Source: Acidimicrobiia bacterium
GTDB lineage: Bacteria; Actinomycetota; Acidimicrobiia; Spongiisociales; JAHEDJ01
Assembly (NCBI GenBank): GCA_035471805.1
Contig: DATIPS010000002.1
Coordinates: 1 to 60,883 of the forward strand
Length of the DNA stretch: 60,883 nt
Direction of reading: 5' to 3'
The notes beneath the pieces are model-generated. The model was not told the DNA's origin. It was given only the letters and a program-made list of their open reading frames with translations, and made no database searches. How positions within the stretch are numbered: position 1 is the first letter of the stretch; every line of letters starts with the position of its first letter. Of the stretch, positions 2,794-42,410 are shown one piece after another. Made by a program: the position numbers and the translations under genes.

Positions 2794-4491
2794 ATGAGCA
2801 ACTTCCCGACAGATATCGAGATTGCACGTTCAGCCGAGTTCAGGCCGATCGACGACGTCGCGGCAGAGATGGGGATCCCTTCTTCCGAAGTGGAACACTG
2901 GGGCCGCAATGTTGCCAAGATCTCACTGGATGCGGCCGACAAGATGGGCCCACCCAAAGCCAAATATGTGCTGGTCACTGCAACGACCCCGACACCGCTC
3001 GGAGAGGGCAAGACGACTGTTGCAGTCGGTCTGGCAGAAGGTTTCAAACACATCCATCGCAAGAGCGTCGTAACGCTGCGCCAGCCTTCCCAGGGTCCGA
3101 CCTTCGGCATCAAAGGCGGAGCGGCGGGCGGAGGCTACTCCCAGATCATCCCGATGGAGTCGCTCAACCTGCACCTGACCGGCGACTTTCACGCCGTCAC
3201 CGCCGCCAACAATCTGCTCTCCGCGATGGCCGACAACCATCTTCATCACGGCAATGAGTTGGGAATCGAGATCCACAACCTGACCTGGCGGCGAGTGCTC
3301 GACGTCAACGACCGGGCGCTGCGCAACGTCATTGTGGGGTTGGGTACGACCGCCGACGGGGTCCCGAGACAGGCCGGCTTCGACATCACATCGGCGAGCG
3401 AACTGATGGCCGTGCTCGGCCTGTCGTCCGACCTCAAGGATCTGCGCGCCCGCGTCGGACGCCTGGTCGTCGGGTTCGATCGGCATCGCAAGGCAGTCAC
3501 GGCCGAGGATTTGAACGCGGCGGGCGCAATGGCCGTGCTGCTGAAGGACGCCCTGAATCCCAACCTGCTTCAGACACTCGAAGGCACTCCGGCGATGATC
3601 CACACCGGACCTTTCGCCAACATCGCACACGGAAACTCCTCGATTGCCGCCGATCGTATCGCCATTCGCGGCGGTGACTTCGTCATCACGGAGGCGGGTT
3701 TCGGTGCAGACATCGGGGCCGAGAAGTTCTTCAACATCAAGTGCCGTGTTTCCGGGATGAAACCGGATGCCGCCGTCGTCGTCACAACGGTGAAGGCGCT
3801 CAAGGTCCAGACCGGCAACTATTCCATAACACTCGGTCACGATCTGCCATCGAGCCTGTTCGAAGAGAACCCGGCGGAGGTCACGGCGGGAGCAGTGAAC
3901 CTCCGGCATCACATCAGCATCATGCGCAAGCACGGTGTGACCCCGGTGGTGGCCATCAACGTCTTCCCGACGGATCACCCCTCGGAGCACGAGGCGGTCG
4001 CAAGGGTCTGCGATGAGGAGGGTGTTCGCTGGGCGATCGCGCGACCTTATTCCGATGGCGGGGAGGGCATGGTCGACCTGGCCCGCCAGGTCGAGGACGC
4101 TTGCGAAGAGGGCTCCGATTTCCGGTTCCTGTATCCCGACGATGCCTCTCTCGAGGCGAAGATCGAGGCCATCGCCACCGAGGTCTACGGTGCCGACGGA
4201 GTCATCTTCGATCTGGCGGCCCGCCGTCAGATCAAACGTGCGGAGGACCAGGGATGGGGAACGATGCCCGTCTGCATGGCGAAGACCCACCTCTCGTTGA
4301 GCCACAACTCCAAGTTGATGGGAGCTCCCAAGGGCTGGAAACTCCCCATCCGGGAGGTTCGTGCATCAGTGGGTGCCGGTTTCATACTCCCGCTGGCCGG
4401 CGATATCCGCACCATGCCCGGTCTCGGTGTCCGGCCGGCCGCACACGGCATTGATCTGGACGACGACGGGAATATCGTTGGCCTGAGCTAG
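2794..4491 (+). CDS. fhs: Formate-tetrahydrofolate ligase
   Basis: This enzyme joins formate to tetrahydrofolate at the cost of ATP to give 10-formyl-THF, feeding one-carbon metabolism in the cytosol. The 565-residue length is normal for the family. The N-terminal P-loop variant TPLGEGKTT (about residues 67-75) and the following SQGPTFGIKGGAAGGGYSQ region are family signatures, as are EAGFGADIGAEKF and the C-terminal PGLGVRPAAHGID. It is a single gene with no other Wood-Ljungdahl genes nearby, so a general folate role is more likely than acetogenesis. Confidence 0.97.
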   Translation: MSNFPTDIEIARSAEFRPIDDVAAEMGIPSSEVEHWGRNVAKISLDAADKMGPPKAKYVLVTATTPTPLGEGKTTVAVGLAEGFKHIHRKSVVTLRQPSQGPTFGIKGGAAGGGYSQIIPMESLNLHLTGDFHAVTAANNLLSAMADNHLHHGNELGIEIHNLTWRRVLDVNDRALRNVIVGLGTTADGVPRQAGFDITSASELMAVLGLSSDLKDLRARVGRLVVGFDRHRKAVTAEDLNAAGAMAVLLKDALNPNLLQTLEGTPAMIHTGPFANIAHGNSSIAADRIAIRGGDFVITEAGFGADIGAEKFFNIKCRVSGMKPDAAVVVTTVKALKVQTGNYSITLGHDLPSSLFEENPAEVTAGAVNLRHHISIMRKHGVTPVVAINVFPTDHPSEHEAVARVCDEEGVRWAIARPYSDGGEGMVDLARQVEDACEEGSDFRFLYPDDASLEAKIEAIATEVYGADGVIFDLAARRQIKRAEDQGWGTMPVCMAKTHLSLSHNSKLMGAPKGWKLPIREVRASVGAGFILPLAGDIRTMPGLGVRPAAHGIDLDDDGNIVGLS

Positions 4492-4508
4492 GCCCGGGGT
4501 CCGGACCA

Positions 4509-4559
4509 TTTTCTCAGCAATGCAGGTGTGCTGGGAGATGAACAGTATTGCTGAGAAAA
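4509..4559. repeat. REP-like palindromic element, copy 1
   Basis: A 51-bp element has perfect 13-bp inverted ends: TTTTCTCAGCAAT at 4509-4521 and its complement at 4547-4559. The same ends recur in two tandem copies at 49654-49763. Here it lies between the convergent fhs and rnpB genes and could fold as a terminator for fhs. Confidence 0.7.
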
Positions 4560-4582
4560 CGACTGATCAGATGTTGAAAGGT

Positions 4583-4608
4583 GTGGAGGCCCCCGAGGGG
4601 GCCTCCAC
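4583..4608 (-). terminator. Terminator of RNase P RNA
   Basis: A perfect 12-bp stem (4583-4594 with 4597-4608) lies just past the 3' end of the RNase P RNA on the minus strand and is followed there by a short T/A-rich stretch. It also could stop transcription coming from fhs. Confidence 0.75.
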
Positions 4609-4611
4609 CTG

Positions 4612-5020
4612 TCGTGAGTCTGCCTATAAGCCGGATTCTGTGCCTCTGCGGTGTTGCCGAAGAGGCGGCGATCATCCATCTGGGGCCGGCGTTGCCGCGC
4701 GACCTCGGTGCGGCCTACCTGGGACCTGGCTACTCGCCGAGGCGAGAGCCGGGCGGGCTACCCGCAGTCCCTGCTTGGCCTTGCTCCGGGTGGGGTTTGC
4801 CTAGCCGTCCCGGTCTCCCGGGATGCTGGTGGTCTCTTACACCACCGTTTCACCCTTGCCGGCTGGTGTGAACACCAACGTAGGCGGTCTGTTCTCTGTG
4901 GCACTTTCCGTCGGCTCGCGCCGCCTGGGCGTTACCCAGCACCCTGCCCTGTGGAGTCCGGACTTTCCTCCGTCTGGTTCCAGAAATGAAACAGGCGGCG
5001 ATCACCCGGCAGGCTCACTC
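4612..5020 (-). ncRNA. rnpB: RNase P RNA, type A-like
   Basis: This is the catalytic RNA that removes 5' leaders from pre-tRNAs. Read on the minus strand, the 5' part has the universal GAGGAAAGTCCGGACTCC block (about 4953-4970) and the 3' part has ACAGAATCCGGCTTATAGG (about 4623-4641), which together form the core pseudoknot P4. The outer ends pair as helix P1 (5010-5018 with 4614-4622, one mismatch), which sets the ends at roughly 5020 and 4612. Several short ORFs across this stretch are chance. A terminator hairpin follows. Confidence 0.95.
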
Positions 5021-5062
5021 TCAGAAGAGTACAACGAATCCGGCCGGGACGTTCTTCCCGAT

Positions 5063-5485
5063 TCAGCGGCGACCTGCGATTCCGCCGCCGAAACGCCCGA
5101 GAACTGCTGAGAGGATCACGAGTGTGACGATGGTCGGCGGGGGAGCAGGGCTTCCCGAGACAATGCTGACGGCACCGACGATGAAAGCCATCAGAACGCC
5201 GGCCAGTGTGCCGTGAGTGGCCGAGGGCCTGGTCAACCGACCTCCGGCGTATCCGGCGCCAATGAAACCCACGATGACGCCCGTCATCAGTGCAGGGTCG
5301 GTGGGGTTGTCGATATCCGGAATCAGGAGAACACCCCAGATGGTCAGGCTGACCAGCCCGGCGACCAGTACACCGCCTACCGCTCCGAGAATGATGGCTC
5401 CAACACTGAGGTAGCGCACTGGTAGTCCTCCGTCGACCGGAATGACTCTAGAGAATGCCGGATTGCCTCCGGACTCATCCGGCAA
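5063..5485 (-). CDS. Small integral membrane protein, unknown function
   Basis: This 140-residue protein has about four predicted hydrophobic segments (YLSVGAIILGAVGGVLVAGL, a second around LTIWGVLLI, ALMTGVIVGFIGAGYAGG, and TLAGVLMAFIVGAV through TIVTLVILSAVLG) and ends in Gly/Arg-rich GRFGGGIAGRR. The pattern resembles small TIGR04086/DUF-type membrane proteins, but I do not recognise the family securely. It lies 42 bp upstream of the RNase P RNA in the same direction. Confidence 0.6.
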   Translation of the reverse strand: MPDESGGNPAFSRVIPVDGGLPVRYLSVGAIILGAVGGVLVAGLVSLTIWGVLLIPDIDNPTDPALMTGVIVGFIGAGYAGGRLTRPSATHGTLAGVLMAFIVGAVSIVSGSPAPPPTIVTLVILSAVLGRFGGGIAGRR

Positions 5486-8700: not shown

Positions 8701-9738
8701 ATGACTGAATCATTCTCCTGGCCGGACACTCTCGGCCGACTGGCCGGCGGCGAAGACATCTCCAGGGTTGCCGCCCATGCGGCGATGTCCGAAGTGATGC
8801 ACGGCCGTGCGACCGAGGCGCAGATCAGCGCCCTCATCGTTTCGATGCGGATCAAGGGCGAGTCCATCGAAGAGATGACGGGATTCGTCGAGGCGATGCG
8901 GGAGGTGGCCGTCTCGGTGGATGTCGGTGTGCCTGTTGTCGACACCGTCGGAACCGGCGGAGATCAGTCCGGGACCTTCAACATCTCGACGACCTCGGCC
9001 TTCATCGCGGCCGGTGCCGGCGTCACCGTCGCCAAACACGGGAATCGTTCGGCATCATCGAAGTGCGGGTCGGCCGATGTGCTGGAGGCGCTGGGTGTCG
9101 TCATCGACCTCGACCCGGAGGCAACCGCCACGCTCGTCCGTGAGGAGCGTTTCGGATTCTTCTTCGCCCCTCTCTATCACCCCTCGATGCACCATGCAGG
9201 CCCGGTCCGAAAGGAACTGGGGATTCCCACCGTGTTCAATTTCCTCGGCCCGCTCGCCAACCCGGCCGGTGCGACCAAACAAGCCGTGGGGGTCTCCGAT
9301 CCGAGCATGGCCGAGAAGATGATCGGTGTGCTCCGCAATCTGGGCTCTGAGTACGCGTTCGTGTTCTACGGCGAGGACGGCTTGGACGAGCTGACCACGA
9401 CGGGACCTTCCTACATCTATCGCTTGCGGGCCGGTGAGATAACCCACGCCGAGTTCACTCCGGAAGATTTCGGCGTCGCCCGCGCCCGACGCGAGGACCT
9501 GCTCGGCGGGGACGCCACCACCAATGCGGCGATCACCCGGAGCATTCTCGACGGCAAGGCGGGACCACCCCGCGACATTGCCCTGGTCAATGCCGCCCCG
9601 GCGATCGTTGTCGCCGGCCTGGCCGGCGGATTCGAGGAAGCGGTGGCGGCCGCAGCCGATGCCGTCGACTCGGGTGCTGCTGCCGCGGTCCTCGACCGGG
9701 TGGTGGAGCGAAGCAATGAAATGAGGACCCGGGGTTAG
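8701..9738 (+). CDS. trpD: Anthranilate phosphoribosyltransferase
   Basis: Transfers phosphoribose from PRPP to anthranilate in tryptophan synthesis. The 345-residue length is typical. Signatures are the phosphate loop VGTGGDQSGTFNIST (83-97) and KHGNRSASSKCGSADVLEALG (112 onward), with HHAGPVRKELGIPTVFNFLGPL lining the anthranilate tunnel. No other trp genes are in the window, so this is a detached trp gene. The next gene, a Fur-family regulator, starts nine bases after the stop and may be in the same transcript. Confidence 0.95.
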   Translation: MTESFSWPDTLGRLAGGEDISRVAAHAAMSEVMHGRATEAQISALIVSMRIKGESIEEMTGFVEAMREVAVSVDVGVPVVDTVGTGGDQSGTFNISTTSAFIAAGAGVTVAKHGNRSASSKCGSADVLEALGVVIDLDPEATATLVREERFGFFFAPLYHPSMHHAGPVRKELGIPTVFNFLGPLANPAGATKQAVGVSDPSMAEKMIGVLRNLGSEYAFVFYGEDGLDELTTTGPSYIYRLRAGEITHAEFTPEDFGVARARREDLLGGDATTNAAITRSILDGKAGPPRDIALVNAAPAIVVAGLAGGFEEAVAAAADAVDSGAAAAVLDRVVERSNEMRTRG

Positions 9739-9747
9739 AGGAACCCG

Positions 9748-10179
9748 ATGCACCTGTCCACCGACGATCTGACGGCTGCGCTCAGGGAAGAGGGCTTCCG
9801 GCTCACTCCTGCCCGGCGGGCAATCTGTGCTGTGCTGGCCGAGAGCCATGAGGAGCACCTGTCGGCGGTGGATGTTCGGGCGCGGGCGGTGGATCGAGCG
9901 GGTATCCGGATCGACCAGTCGACCGTTTACCGCACCCTGGATGTCTTCGAGCGTCTCGGATGGCTTCATCATGTCCATCTGGGGCACGGTCCGGGCATCG
10001 TTCATTTCAGTGAAGAGACCGATCATCATCACCTCGTCTGTGAGGCGTGTGGCCTGCTGGTCGACGTGCCGGTCGAGGAACTTGACGGTGTTTTCGGGCA
10101 ACTCTCCGAGCGCCACGGCTTTGCGCCGACCTCGATGCACTTCGCGCTGATCGGTACGTGCAAGAGCTGCGCCGACTAA
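9748..10179 (+). CDS. Fur-family metalloregulator, candidate nickel regulator Nur
   Basis: This 143-residue protein has the Fur winged helix (TPARRAICAVL, then DQSTVYRTLDVFERLGWLHH as recognition region) and the C-terminal metal/dimer domain. The His-rich TDHHHLVCEACG (92-102) and a second pair CKSC (138-141) give two CxxC motifs, which in many Fur proteins hold a structural zinc. Sequence alone does not separate Fur, Zur and Nur. The match of the nearby 10894-10910 site to the Nur box, in front of a nickel-type transporter, makes Nur the best guess. It represses when loaded with metal if it follows the family. Confidence 0.82.
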   Translation: MHLSTDDLTAALREEGFRLTPARRAICAVLAESHEEHLSAVDVRARAVDRAGIRIDQSTVYRTLDVFERLGWLHHVHLGHGPGIVHFSEETDHHHLVCEACGLLVDVPVEELDGVFGQLSERHGFAPTSMHFALIGTCKSCAD

Positions 10180-10205: not shown

Positions 10206-10847
10206 ATGCGCCGGTTTGTCCTCTTGGTGATTTCTGTGGCCCTCACGCTCGCCGCCTGTGGAGGTTCGAGCACTCCCGCCACCTCTGATGACTCCGGCGT
10301 CCCCGAAACACTCTCCACCACAGCAGGCACGGTCGAAGCGGCAGATGTGCAGTCCGGCAGCACCGAGGTGGCCGCCGACACGACAGAAGGTGGCACTGCG
10401 CCTCCCGCCGGCCCGGTGCCCACCGACTTCGATGGACCGATCGCCGCCGATTTCACGATAAAGCTCAACAAGACGGGAACCTTCACGCTGAGCGAGGAAA
10501 CCCGCCCCGTTTACCTGGTGTTCTGGGCCGAATGGTGAGCGACCTGTCGACGGGAGTTGCCCGTCGTCGATGAGATCGCCGGGGAGTACGGAGACGCGAT
10601 AGCCTTCGTGGCTCTGGCCTGGAAAGGCACCTACAACGACACCGCAGCACAGGCGGCCGCCCTGCTGCAGTCCGGCAAGGTCGACTGGGCTCTCGACGAC
10701 GAGGCAGAGATCTTCAGTCTCTACGGTGTGCCCTATCAGCCGGTCTCGTTTCTGATCACCGGCGACGACAAGGTCTTCGACACCTGGCCGGGAGTGCGGG
10801 ATGATGCGGCCATTCGGGAAGCGCTGGACTCACTGCTCGATCTCTAG
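10206..10847 (+). CDS. TlpA/thioredoxin-like lipoprotein with in-frame UGA, probable selenoprotein
   Basis: The frame runs 213 residues if the single UGA at 10536-10538 is read through. The first part has a signal peptide with lipobox LAAC (Cys18) and a Thr/Ser/Ala linker. The second is a thioredoxin fold. Around the UGA the protein reads FWAEW-UGA-ATCRRELPVVDEIA, so UGA replaces the first, nucleophilic Cys of a WCxxC motif and Cys114 remains. Downstream residues are normal TlpA-like sequence, including the GVPYQP cis-Pro loop. A 7-bp hairpin with a GU-containing loop starts ten bases after the UGA (candidate SECIS). Selenocysteine insertion at codon 111 is the most economical reading. A recent nonsense mutation or a sequencing error is the alternative. 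No selABD genes or tRNA-Sec are in the window. Confidence 0.8.
10548..10566 (+). promoter_or_regulatory. Candidate bacterial SECIS hairpin
   Basis: CGACGGG (10548-10554) pairs perfectly with CCCGTCG (10560-10566) around a 5-base loop AGTTG. The stem begins ten bases after the UGA. Bacterial SECIS elements lie inside the coding sequence just after the UGA and carry a GU in the apical loop, as here. Sequence-specific SelB recognition cannot be judged by eye. Confidence 0.55.
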
Positions 10848-10888: not shown

Positions 10889-10911
10889 TATACTTGCAAT
10901 TGAGTTGCAAT
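10889..10911 (+). promoter_or_regulatory. Nur box overlapping a -10 element before nikMN
   Basis: TTGCAA (10894-10899), five bases, TTGCAA (10905-10910) equals the published Streptomyces Nur consensus tTGCaa-N5-ttGCAA. It abuts a good -10 hexamer, TATACT (10889-10894), upstream of the transporter gene at 10929. Binding here would block transcription, as expected for nickel-dependent repression of nickel uptake. No clear -35 is visible. Confidence 0.7.
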
Positions 10912-10928: not shown

Positions 10929-11915
10929 ATGCATATTCCCGACGGGTTCATCAACGGCGCAACTTCACTGGGTGCCGGCGTGGTGGCAGCTTCCAGCCTG
11001 GCAGCCGGTCTGCGCAGAGCGGGCAAGGTTTTGCAGGATCGTCAGATACCGCTTGCCGGCCTCCTCGCCGCGTTTGTGTTCGTGTTGCAAATGCTCAACT
11101 TCCCGGTGGTCGGTGGCATGAGTGGCCACCTTCTCGGGGGAGCTCTTGCGGCACTTCTCGTCGGTCCCTGGATCGGACTCGTGGTCATGACCGTCGTTGT
11201 TGGGGTCCAAGCGCTGCTGTTCGCGGATGGTGGACTCTCGGCACTCGGATTGAACGTCATAAACATGGGCCTGCTCACCGTCGCCACCGGGTGGTTGGCT
11301 TTCCGGGTTGTGATGATCGTGCTTCCCAAGAACTCGACCTCGGTCCTCACCGCAGGGGCCTTCGGGGCGTGGTTGTCGGTGGTGGTTTCCTCTCTCGGGT
11401 TCGTCGGGGAATATTCCATCGGGGGAGTCGGGAACGCTTCGCTGAGCACCGTCCTGGCGGCAATGGCGGGGACCCATGCACTGATCGGCATCGGCGAGGG
11501 CCTGATAACCGCCGGCGTGCTCGGCGCGGTGCTGGCCGTGCGTCCGGATCTGGTTCATGGAGCGCGGATCTTCGGGATCAGTCGCGCTGATACCACATTG
11601 CTCGGCCGGCGCCGGGTCGCCTTGTTCGTGGCCGGCGGAGTGGCAGTGGCAGCTCTGCTGGTCACCGTGGTCGCTCCACTGGCCTCCGATGATCCGGATG
11701 GTCTGGAACGTGTCGCCATCGACCAGGGGTTTGCCGATGAGGCGCGTGACCATTCGCTCGGCGACTCTCCTTTGGCCGGATACGGAGTCGAGGGTCTCGA
11801 GGGCGATCGGATGGGCACCGTCGTTGCCGGTTTGATCGGGCTGGGAGCGACGTTCGCGGCCGGAGTGGCCTTCATGTTCGTCGTCCGTGGTAGGCGAGCC
11901 CGGTCCAACCACTGA
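10929..11915 (+). CDS. nikMN: ECF nickel transporter S component, NikM-NikN fusion (CbiM family)
   Basis: This 328-residue membrane protein is the substrate-binding unit of an energy-coupling-factor importer for Ni2+ or Co2+. The N-terminus MHIPDGF is invariant, since Met1 and His2 form part of the metal site. Seven or so membrane segments follow (for example MSGHLLGGALAALLVGPWIG, and the second metal-loop GTHALIGIGEGLITA). The C-terminal ~90 residues carry the DPDGLERVA signature of the NikN/CbiN (PDGLE) domain plus a last membrane helix, so M and N are fused. The Nur box upstream argues for nickel over cobalt, and no cobalamin genes are near. Confidence 0.9.
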   Translation: MHIPDGFINGATSLGAGVVAASSLAAGLRRAGKVLQDRQIPLAGLLAAFVFVLQMLNFPVVGGMSGHLLGGALAALLVGPWIGLVVMTVVVGVQALLFADGGLSALGLNVINMGLLTVATGWLAFRVVMIVLPKNSTSVLTAGAFGAWLSVVVSSLGFVGEYSIGGVGNASLSTVLAAMAGTHALIGIGEGLITAGVLGAVLAVRPDLVHGARIFGISRADTTLLGRRRVALFVAGGVAVAALLVTVVAPLASDDPDGLERVAIDQGFADEARDHSLGDSPLAGYGVEGLEGDRMGTVVAGLIGLGATFAAGVAFMFVVRGRRARSNH

Positions 11916-12676
11916 TGGCGGGCACCCACACACATGCTCTCTTCGTCCATGGGGACAGCGAACTGCACCGGCTCCCCGCCTCGCCGAAGCTGGGCGCGCT
12001 GGGTCTGTTCGTGCTGGCGGTGGTGTTGACACCGAGGGAGGCGATCGGGGCCTTCGGTGTGCATGCCGGTCTCGTTCTCGTCGGTGCCTGGGTCGCCGGG
12101 TTGAAACCGATGTTCATGGCGAGACGGTTGCTGATCGAGATTCCGTTCGTCCTGTTTGCGGTGCTACTTCCTTTCTTCGGTGGTGGAGAGCGGATCGAGG
12201 TAGTCGGCCTGTCGCTGTCGGTTGAAGGCTTGTGGGGAGGTTGGAACATCGTCGCCAAGGCCACGCTCGGGCTGGCGGCATCCGTCGTGCTGACCGCAAC
12301 GACCACCGTGCCCGACATCCTTTCTGGACTCGATCGGCTCCGCGTTCCCCGTTTGATCACGTCGATAGCGGGGTTCATGGTCCGGTACCTCGACGTCATC
12401 GCAGGCGAGATGCACCGGATGCGGATGGCGATGCTGTCGCGCGGTCACAACCCGCGCTGGATCTGGCAGCTGAAGGCCTACACGGCGTCTGCCGGAGCAC
12501 TCTTCATCAGGTCCTACGAGCGGGGCGAACGCGTCTACTACGCGATGACGGCACGCGGATTCACCGGTCGTGTTCCGACATTCGATGGGAAAGTCCGGCC
12601 CGCAGATTGGGCACGTGCGTTGAGTGTGCCCGCTATCGCCTGGCTGGCCGCCGGTTGGGGAGTGGTGGCGCGATGA
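11915..12676 (+). CDS. nikQ: ECF transporter T component (NikQ/CbiQ family)
   Basis: This 253-residue membrane protein couples ATP hydrolysis by NikO to substrate movement in NikMN. Hydrophobic segments are spread over the first 150 residues. The two short coupling motifs of T components are visible as MLSRGHNP and MTARGFTG. It overlaps the upstream stop by one base and the downstream start by four, so the three genes form one operon. Confidence 0.9.
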   Translation: MAGTHTHALFVHGDSELHRLPASPKLGALGLFVLAVVLTPREAIGAFGVHAGLVLVGAWVAGLKPMFMARRLLIEIPFVLFAVLLPFFGGGERIEVVGLSLSVEGLWGGWNIVAKATLGLAASVVLTATTTVPDILSGLDRLRVPRLITSIAGFMVRYLDVIAGEMHRMRMAMLSRGHNPRWIWQLKAYTASAGALFIRSYERGERVYYAMTARGFTGRVPTFDGKVRPADWARALSVPAIAWLAAGWGVVAR

Positions 12677-13416
12677 CCATTCCCGCCCTGGAGGTTGTGG
12701 GCCTCAACTATCACTACCCGGACGGAACCGAGGTCCTGCGCGATGCCGGTTTCCACATCCACCCCGGCGAGCGGGTGGCTCTCCTCGGCCCGAACGGGGC
12801 CGGCAAGACCACGCTGGTGTTCCACCTGAACGGGATCTTCCGGCCGGAGAGTGGGTCGGTGACCGTGGCCGGGTTGCCGGTCGAGGACGCCAACCTCATG
12901 GAGATCCGGCGACGGGTCGGAATCGTCTTTCAGGACCCGGATGATCAGTTGTTCATGCCGACCGTCCGCCAAGACGTCGCTTTCGGTCCGGCCAACTACG
13001 GACTGGAAGGTGACGAGTTGGATGAGCGCGTGACCGAAGCCCTCTCTGCCGTCGGGATGCTCGGTGTCGCGGACCGGCCACCCCACCATCTCAGCCTCGG
13101 CCAGCGCCGTCGAGTGGCGGTGGCAACCGTCCTGGCGATGCGTCCTGAGATCGTTGTGCTCGATGAGCCTTCTTCGAACCTGGACCCTGCGTCGCGTCGT
13201 GAACTCGCCGCCATCCTGACCTCGCTGGAGATCACGATGCTGATGGTGACGCACGATCTGCCGTACGCCCTCGAGCTCTGCCCGCGGGCACTGGTGATGA
13301 ATGAGGGAAGGATCATCGCGGACGGTCCTACGAAGCAGATCCTCTCCGATCGCGACCTGATGAAGGCCAACCGGCTCGAACTCCCGATGGGTTTCGATCC
13401 GAATATCGCGAACTGA
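12673..13416 (+). CDS. nikO: ECF transporter ATPase (NikO/CbiO family)
   Basis: The 247-residue ATP-binding subunit of the nickel ECF importer. Walker A is GPNGAGKTT (39-47), the Q-loop is VFQDPDDQLF (typical of the ECF group), the signature is LSLGQRRR and Walker B is IVVLDEPSS. The start at 12673 overlaps the T-component stop (ATGA). A single ATPase gene implies a homodimer. Confidence 0.92.
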   Translation: MTIPALEVVGLNYHYPDGTEVLRDAGFHIHPGERVALLGPNGAGKTTLVFHLNGIFRPESGSVTVAGLPVEDANLMEIRRRVGIVFQDPDDQLFMPTVRQDVAFGPANYGLEGDELDERVTEALSAVGMLGVADRPPHHLSLGQRRRVAVATVLAMRPEIVVLDEPSSNLDPASRRELAAILTSLEITMLMVTHDLPYALELCPRALVMNEGRIIADGPTKQILSDRDLMKANRLELPMGFDPNIAN

Positions 13417-41198: not shown

Positions 41199-41897
41199 CT
41201 AGCCCTCGTTGCGGCCGTCCGGGGCCCGCCGGAACAACGCCATCCCGGCCAGCGTGATCCCCAGCACGATCGCCGAGGTGTACCACCAGACGGGTCCGGA
41301 ACCGAGTGACGGGCGCATCGGCTCGGTGATCAGCCGGATCAGTCCTGCCGCGGCCAGGGCCAGCCCGGCCGGCAACCCGCCACGGCCAATCCGGCGGATC
41401 ACGAGGAGCAACCCGCCGGCGGCCAGCAGGACCAGCAGTGCTGCGTAGAGCTCCGTCGGATGCCGGGTGAGATCCGATCCGGGCTGGGCAACCGCCCACG
41501 GCAGGTCGCTGCGGGTGCCGAGGCAGGTACCCCTGAAAACGCATCCGCCGTGCCAACCTGCAAGGCCGGCGAGTATCGCAGGCGACATCAGATCGAGTGT
41601 GGCGGGGAGCGAGCGGCGGGTTGCCCAGGCGAGGAACCCCAAAGCGCCGAGCGACGCGAAGCCCGTGTCGACTCCTCCCCTGATCAGGATGATGTCCGCC
41701 GGGTGAGTCACAGGGTTGGTGCCGGTCAGGAGCATCGCGGCGATGCGTCCGGCCACCAACCCGAACACCGTTGCCCCCAGAACGGTGTCGAATGACCGTT
41801 CGTCCGGACCGAGGCCGAGGCGCCGTTCGAACCAGAGCATCAGCCAGATTGCGCCTACCGCCAGAAGGGCCGCCCAGAGCAGAGTGAACTCCATCAA
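41199..41897 (-). CDS. Lgt-like prolipoprotein diacylglyceryl transferase homologue
   Basis: 232 residues, about seven helices. RHPTELYAALLVLLAAGG and LIRLITEPMRPSLGS match Lgt motifs. The usual GRxGNFxNxExxG is GCVFRGTCLG here, so a key Asn/Glu motif is missing and the enzyme may have a changed role. Lies next to a TlpA-like lipoprotein. Activity as Lgt is uncertain, since a canonical lgt could be elsewhere. Confidence 0.68.
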   Translation of the reverse strand: MMEFTLLWAALLAVGAIWLMLWFERRLGLGPDERSFDTVLGATVFGLVAGRIAAMLLTGTNPVTHPADIILIRGGVDTGFASLGALGFLAWATRRSLPATLDLMSPAILAGLAGWHGGCVFRGTCLGTRSDLPWAVAQPGSDLTRHPTELYAALLVLLAAGGLLLVIRRIGRGGLPAGLALAAAGLIRLITEPMRPSLGSGPVWWYTSAIVLGITLAGMALFRRAPDGRNEG

Positions 41898-41939: not shown

Positions 41940-42410
41940 TCATCGGTTCAGGATCTCGTCTATCTGGAGCGACAGGGTGCGCTCGTCGATCACACCATTG
42001 TGCCGGTGGATCAGTTCGCCGCTGGCGGTGAAGAAGTAGGTGATCGGCACTCCGACTCCCCCCAGGGCGGAACGCACGGCACCGGAACGATCGAAGTAGT
42101 TGTCGAACTCCAGTCCGTATTCGGCGATGAACGCCCGCGCCGCATTCTGAGTGTCCTCGATGTCGATCCCGATGAAAGTCACCTCGTCGCCGAAGGCCTC
42201 GTGAGCGGCAGACAGCAACGGGGCCTCAGACCTGCACGGGATGCACCATGAGGCCCATACATTGAGCACGAGGGGATCGCCGGAGCTCAGCAGATCACTG
42301 AGGATGGCGTCGTCGATCGCAGGCAACTCCGGCACGTCTGCCGGTGCGGCAGTTCCGCAGGCGGCCAGCACCAGAGCGAGACCGAGGCCCGCCAGCATTC
42401 GGCGAATCAC
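41940..42410 (-). CDS. TlpA-like thioredoxin-fold lipoprotein
   Basis: 156 residues. Lipobox LAAC (Cys18), then a thioredoxin fold with active site VWASWCIPCRSEAP (Cys56, Cys59), and the cis-Pro loop GVGVPITYFF. A reducing disulfide oxidoreductase outside the membrane. This is the ordinary CxxC counterpart of the UGA-containing protein at 10206. Overlaps the kinase gene upstream by four bases. Confidence 0.92.
   Translation of the reverse strand: MIRRMLAGLGLALVLAACGTAAPADVPELPAIDDAILSDLLSSGDPLVLNVWASWCIPCRSEAPLLSAAHEAFGDEVTFIGIDIEDTQNAARAFIAEYGLEFDNYFDRSGAVRSALGGVGVPITYFFTASGELIHRHNGVIDERTLSLQIDEILNR

Follow-up and report, generated by a model that had tools for sequence, protein, structure and literature searches.

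The 60,883-nucleotide stretch analysed here (the window) lies on contig C2 of a host genome, G000, of 2.85 Mb and 97% completeness. Two open reading frames on its forward strand, 10206-10538 and 10557-10847, share one frame and are joined in translation through a single TGA at 10536-10538. When this TGA is read as U, the frame stays open from 10206 to the TAG at 10845-10847 and yields a product of 213 amino acids. The locus comprises the following features.

8701-9738, forward strand: trpD (Pfam), the most conserved upstream neighbour, found close by in 52 of 74 loci
9748-10179, forward strand: gene for a Fur-family regulator, probably Nur (Pfam FUR), directly upstream and known as a neighbour only
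10206-10847, forward strand: full gene of the proposed selenoprotein, 213 residues including the putative Sec111, with the stop TAG
10206-10259, forward strand: predicted signal peptide, MRRFVLLVISVALTLAAC, with lipobox L-A-A-C and putatively lipidated Cys18 (10257-10259)
10428-10844, forward strand: predicted thioredoxin-fold domain, residues 75-213, with the cis-Pro-like P179
10536-10538, forward strand: UGA codon of the putative Sec111, first residue of UATC
10545-10547, forward strand: resolving Cys114 of UxxC, invariant in the 86-row alignment
10548-10566, forward strand: putative SECIS hairpin, stem 10548-10554/10560-10566, loop AGUUG at 10555-10559, supported by pair counts, codon constraint, recoding and a covariance model
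10894-10910, forward strand: Nur-box-like operator TTGCAA-N5-TTGCAA, a perfect match, between the selenoprotein gene and cbiM
10929-13416, forward strand: cbiM-cbiQ-cbiO, Ni/Co uptake of the ECF type, downstream (Pfam CbiM, PDGLE and CbiQ; cbiO named from its ATPase sequence and from homologues in the same place)

The encoded protein appears to be an exported lipoprotein. Cys18 of the LAAC lipobox is near-invariant among 30 homologues compared, and we infer that it is lipidated and holds the protein on the outer face of the cytoplasmic membrane. A linker rich in Ser, Thr, Asp and Glu leads from the signal peptide to the thioredoxin domain, in which the UGA stands in the context VFWAEW-U-ATC-RRELPVVD, where ATC denotes the amino acids encoded by GCG ACC TGT. 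The Pfam models AhpC-TSA, Redoxin and Thioredoxin each match above their cut-offs. AlphaFold2, run with the 86-row alignment, gives a mean pLDDT of 86 and values above 90 across most of residues 75-213; in the model, a helix at 112-128 directly follows Sec111 and P179 precedes a strand at 180-184. The mature domain is therefore predicted with confidence to be a thioredoxin fold, and its closest structural match is ResA.

The in-frame UGA is conserved far beyond this assembly. Each of the five genomes of the genus has the gene with exactly one in-frame TGA at the identical codon, and pairwise dN 3' of it is 0.02-0.08 vs dS of 0.28-1.10, which indicates purifying selection on the second half. 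Across the order (Acidimicrobiia), the gene is found in 99 of 138 genomes, 94 with the in-frame TGA and five with the Cys form only; none of 257 genomes from other orders of the class contains it at E 1e-20, and no relative is found among plasmid records at E 1e-15. The gene set consists of 81 distinct TGA genes and five true Cys homologues, which together make up the 86-row alignment. At the position of Sec111 the homologues have either TGA or a Cys codon. These results bear out the first-pass annotation, which had joined the two reading frames through one UGA, with coordinates and frame that prove exact, had placed this codon at the nucleophilic Cys of a WCxxC motif followed by a normal thioredoxin-fold domain with cis-Pro, and had considered a random nonsense change at that very codon unlikely.

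The hairpin described in the same annotation, a 7-bp stem with an AGTTG loop starting ten bases past the UGA, is likewise confirmed. Published constraints for bacterial SECIS elements are a loop of 3-9 nt with G in one of the first two positions, a stem of 4-16 bp, a distance of 16-37 nt from the UGA and a minimum free energy at or below -7.5 (PMC13188914). The present hairpin falls within all four, with a loop of five, G at position 2 (then U), 16 nt from UGA to loop, which is the lower limit, and -11.6 kcal/mol; 78 of the 81 TGA genes also pass. Folding of the 50-nt stretch alone gives no significant stability (z -0.35), and the hairpin has no matching Rfam model. Its significance lies in the comparison of many genes and does not depend on the folding energy of a single one.

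Our comparison indicates that the codons 3' of the UGA are fixed beyond the need of the protein, since their frequencies lie far over background, which for Arg is the share of CGG among Arg codons in later parts of these genes: Arg116 is CGG in 81/81 genes (background 30%), Leu118 is TTG or TTA in 78/81 (15%) and Pro119 is CCC in 78/81 (38%). In the Cys homologues, these residues are encoded by different codons. Base 2 of codon 4 covaries with base 3 of codon 9 (G-C 54, A-U 21, U-A 1, G-U 4), and a change from Arg to Gln at codon 4 is accompanied by a synonymous change of Val120 from GTC to GTT. In a set of 47 distinct sequences, pairing holds in 90.6% of cells, no sliding of the partner approaches the true register in cells paired, and the covariation score is reached by 0 of 500 shuffles, a test that kinship weakens. 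A 6-bp register is kept in 78 of the 81 TGA genes, compared with a mean of 3.1 and a maximum of 9 in 300 random synonymous recodings of the same proteins with codon usage preserved, and in none of the five Cys homologues. The three genes outside this register are two tandem paralogues with a rebuilt hairpin and L066, in which the hairpin is weakened. A covariance model, trained on this sequence family, scores 60.2 bits at the hairpin; no second copy is detected by it in the genome, and the next hit (L149, 17.8 bits) has no in-frame UGA codon belonging to a gene. Comparison of these sequences thus shows the hairpin to be under selection.

The host genome encodes the complete machinery for selenocysteine. 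selA and selB are adjacent on contig C49 (431 and 341 bits), selD is on C31 (401 bits) and a tRNA-Sec with the UCA anticodon is found at 75 bits. Two further genes carry an in-frame UGA followed by a hairpin, as in the present gene: selD itself (C31, 62529-63458), with TGA in GSG-U-ACKL, and fdhA (C23, 79093-80961), encoding the formate dehydrogenase alpha subunit, with TGA at NRT-U-HAPSVVGL, a classical Sec site. Their hairpins differ in sequence from that of the present gene, the one in fdhA being long and E. coli-like with the loop GGUCU. As far as can be read from these genes, other loci of the host genome use UGA for Sec as well. The machinery also tracks the codon across the order: selA is present in 85 of the 94 TGA genomes (Fisher p 0.0009 vs Cys-only genomes, not corrected for relatedness), and of the nine without it, three have tRNA-Sec and six, each less than 80% complete, have neither. 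Neither selA nor tRNA-Sec is present in four Cys-only genomes (G035, G047, G135 and G137); the fifth, G136, has both and presumably keeps Sec for other proteins.

Taken with the homologue codons and the hairpin, this machinery supports the earlier proposal of a likely selenoprotein, and we conclude that UGA 10536-10538 almost certainly encodes selenocysteine and that 10206-10847 is one selenoprotein gene. That the UGA is translated as sense is shown by the comparison of sequences; the actual insertion of selenium is predicted. In the proposed event, the ribosome would reach the UGA while SelB with Sec-tRNA-Sec is bound to the hairpin at 10548-10566, and selenocysteine would be inserted as residue 111.

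Two other explanations of the codon have to be considered. TGA is one base from a Cys codon and Cys homologues exist, such that TGC or TGT might have been mutated, giving a pseudogene, or miscalled in this assembly. We regard this as barely credible, since all five congeners share this TGA, as do 81 distinct genes, with strong purifying selection on the part after it, and an in-frame TGA in more than 90 separate assemblies rules out a base-call error. It is also conceivable that the UGA is read through as an ordinary residue, by a near-cognate Cys or Trp tRNA or under a reassigned code, or only partially, giving two products; the inserted residue is predicted from sequence, and some truncated product would be expected in any case. 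However, three of the five congeners terminate this very gene with TGA, and cbiM, cbiQ and cbiO also end in TGA. UGA therefore also acts as a genuine stop, and there is no reassignment of the code. Ordinary readthrough would moreover leave unexplained the complete Sec machinery with its UCA tRNA-Sec, the loss of the hairpin exactly in the Cys forms, and the lack of selA and tRNA-Sec in most Cys-only genomes, and it is accordingly very improbable.

With Sec111 as the preferred reading, the family allows Sec and Cys to be compared in a natural experiment, within a single protein in a conserved genomic place, with about 80 Sec forms and at least three Sec/Cys changes accompanied by loss of the hairpin. 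The number of changes is that of the Sec/Cys label on the tree of 86 domains, i.e. the two residues have, judging from the tree, been interchanged at least three times. One of the changes corresponds to an additional copy of the Cys type in a genome where the Sec form is present too (L128, L086).

Several observations concern the copies themselves. L128 and L086, which belong to the same genome (UBA4744), are paralogues, one of the Sec and one of the Cys type. Tandem copies, two or three in number and all with TGA, occur in some genomes (L097, L098, L100, L101); in each of L098, L100 and L101 (about 3000-5100), three selenoprotein paralogues, all with TGA, lie in tandem, and in L098 and L101 the hairpin of the most upstream copy is rebuilt and closed by a C-G pair. 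A second apparent hit with TGA in the host genome (L030, on C50) turned out to be an ordinary TrxA (WCGPC) and no selenoprotein. The other TlpA-like lipoprotein of the window, at 41940-42410 on the reverse strand, is a Cys protein (WASWCIPC) and no copy of the selenoprotein; this TlpA/DsbE-like gene lies upstream of an Lgt-like gene at 41199-41897, the latter named by eye.

TlpA-like selenoproteins with UxxC (thiol-disulfide isomerase-like, cd02966) are a family predicted from metagenomes, and a 'UGC-containing TlpA' selenoprotein (Table 1) and a redoxin form are also listed (PMC13188914). Compared by description, the cd02966 form resembles the present protein in its TlpA-like thioredoxin fold with Sec first in the active-site pair; the UGC-containing form is also TlpA-like with Sec in that position, but its motif differs. 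Actinomycetota are not named in the text of that review on TlpA-like selenoproteins (PMC13188914), the deep-Sep paper makes no mention of Acidimicrobiia or actinobacterial TlpA selenoproteins, and our literature search found no paper on either. No NCBIfam model claims this lipoprotein subfamily. The protein is best described as a putative new subfamily of the known TlpA-like UxxC selenoproteins. A lipid-anchored selenoprotein of this kind is less unusual than initially supposed, because the Rcas_1661 thioredoxin-like (seleno)lipoprotein (NCBIfam NF041057), which is lipid-anchored and can carry Sec, provides a precedent for the location; with 21.8 bits against a cut-off of 190, it is another family.

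What seems striking is the breadth of the subfamily inside one order, its near-fixed SECIS sequence and the recurrent change between Sec and Cys. For Actinomycetota, it supplies a well-sampled SECIS that covaries within a coding region, and it connects selenium with extracytoplasmic thiol chemistry in a way that can be tested. Since standard gene callers halt at UGA, public genomes probably show this redox protein, which the majority of a widespread order carries, as two separate fragments.

As for function, the best structural match of the predicted domain is Bacillus subtilis ResA (Z 20.8, 1.7 A across 136 residues), with CcmG (17.5), TlpA (16.8), DsbE and DsbF among the solved structures that rank lower. 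ResA and TlpA are extracytoplasmic reductases acting on apocytochrome c and on oxidase subunit II/Sco (PMC3884852, PMC9145763). Like the present protein, ResA is a membrane-held extracytoplasmic enzyme, and its E80 corresponds by position to E117 here, an acidic residue six after the nucleophile. It differs in its CEPC motif, vs UATC here, with about 20% identity, and it serves System II with CcdA, whereas the genes linked here are those of System I, ccmEFGH. Its NCBIfam model (NF002854) gives 46 bits, below the curated cut-off of 170. The protein may work like ResA, though it is not filed as ResA. Bradyrhizobium TlpA and CcmG (DsbE) share the fold and the extracytoplasmic location, and act in oxidase assembly and cytochrome c maturation, but have a Cys nucleophile; DsbE/CcmG TIGR00385 gives 29.3 bits against a curated cut-off of 123.

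A role in disulfide reduction is thus reasonably probable. The Sec111 selenolate and Cys114 of the exported lipoprotein would reduce disulfides in extracytoplasmic substrates, as TlpA, ResA and CcmG do, with electrons supplied by a presumed membrane donor of the CcdA/DsbD type. Apocytochromes c or cytochrome oxidase assembly factors would be the likeliest clients, an assignment that we consider possible but distinctly less secure than the reductase role. The alternative is a selenoprotein with a peroxide or selenium/metal redox role, either peroxiredoxin-like or tied to nickel uptake. AhpC-TSA and Redoxin are indeed the top Pfam matches, and the Fur-family gene and cbiMQO adjoin the gene in this genus and in some other families. 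On the other hand, a UxxC motif whose resolving Cys lies at +3 is the pattern of thioredoxin/TlpA and differs from the TxxC/TxxU of peroxiredoxins, which also rank lower in structure (AhpE, Z 16.5, vs ResA), and most loci have neither fur nor cbiM, whose operon has its own Nur box. We consider such a role unlikely.

The nickel regulon noted at first pass does adjoin the gene here, with the Fur-family gene and cbiMQO on either side, but it is not a feature of the family, fur being near the gene in 14 of 74 loci and cbiM in 10. The operator at 10894-10910 is a perfect match to the Nur-box consensus TTGCAA-N5-TTGCAA (PMC3919588), expected 0.03 times in the window, and perfect copies recur in L068, L070, L072, L080, L082 and L084. 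It suggests that the Fur-family gene is Nur and that cbiMQO is a nickel uptake operon. Because this conserved box lies between the selenoprotein gene and cbiM, the nickel operon is probably under its own control and the selenoprotein a neighbour. We have therefore set the nickel link aside as a general explanation.

Genes for cytochrome c maturation are a more frequent neighbour: a CcmG-like gene is near the selenoprotein gene in 41 of 74 loci, CcmH in 26 and CcmF in 22, many loci being cut short. These genes, related to DsbE, CcmF/NrfE, CcmH/NrfF and CcmE (NCBIfam, Pfam), are downstream and convergent with the selenoprotein gene. Since they form no operon with it and ccmF of the host genome is on another contig, the cytochrome/oxidase step is one that we infer, and the ccm link may stem from inherited gene order and not from function. 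A CcmG of the Cys type is already encoded in the ccm cluster, and the selenoprotein is therefore not simply a missing CcmG. A further reading, which we consider possible but less likely than not, is an order-wide, selenium-dependent assembly of cytochrome c or oxidase, in which a Sec-containing ResA/TlpA-type reductase works with System I (ccmEFGH). If this were true, respiration of these uncultured Acidimicrobiia would depend on selenium, and Cys would have replaced Sec repeatedly upon loss of the Sec system.
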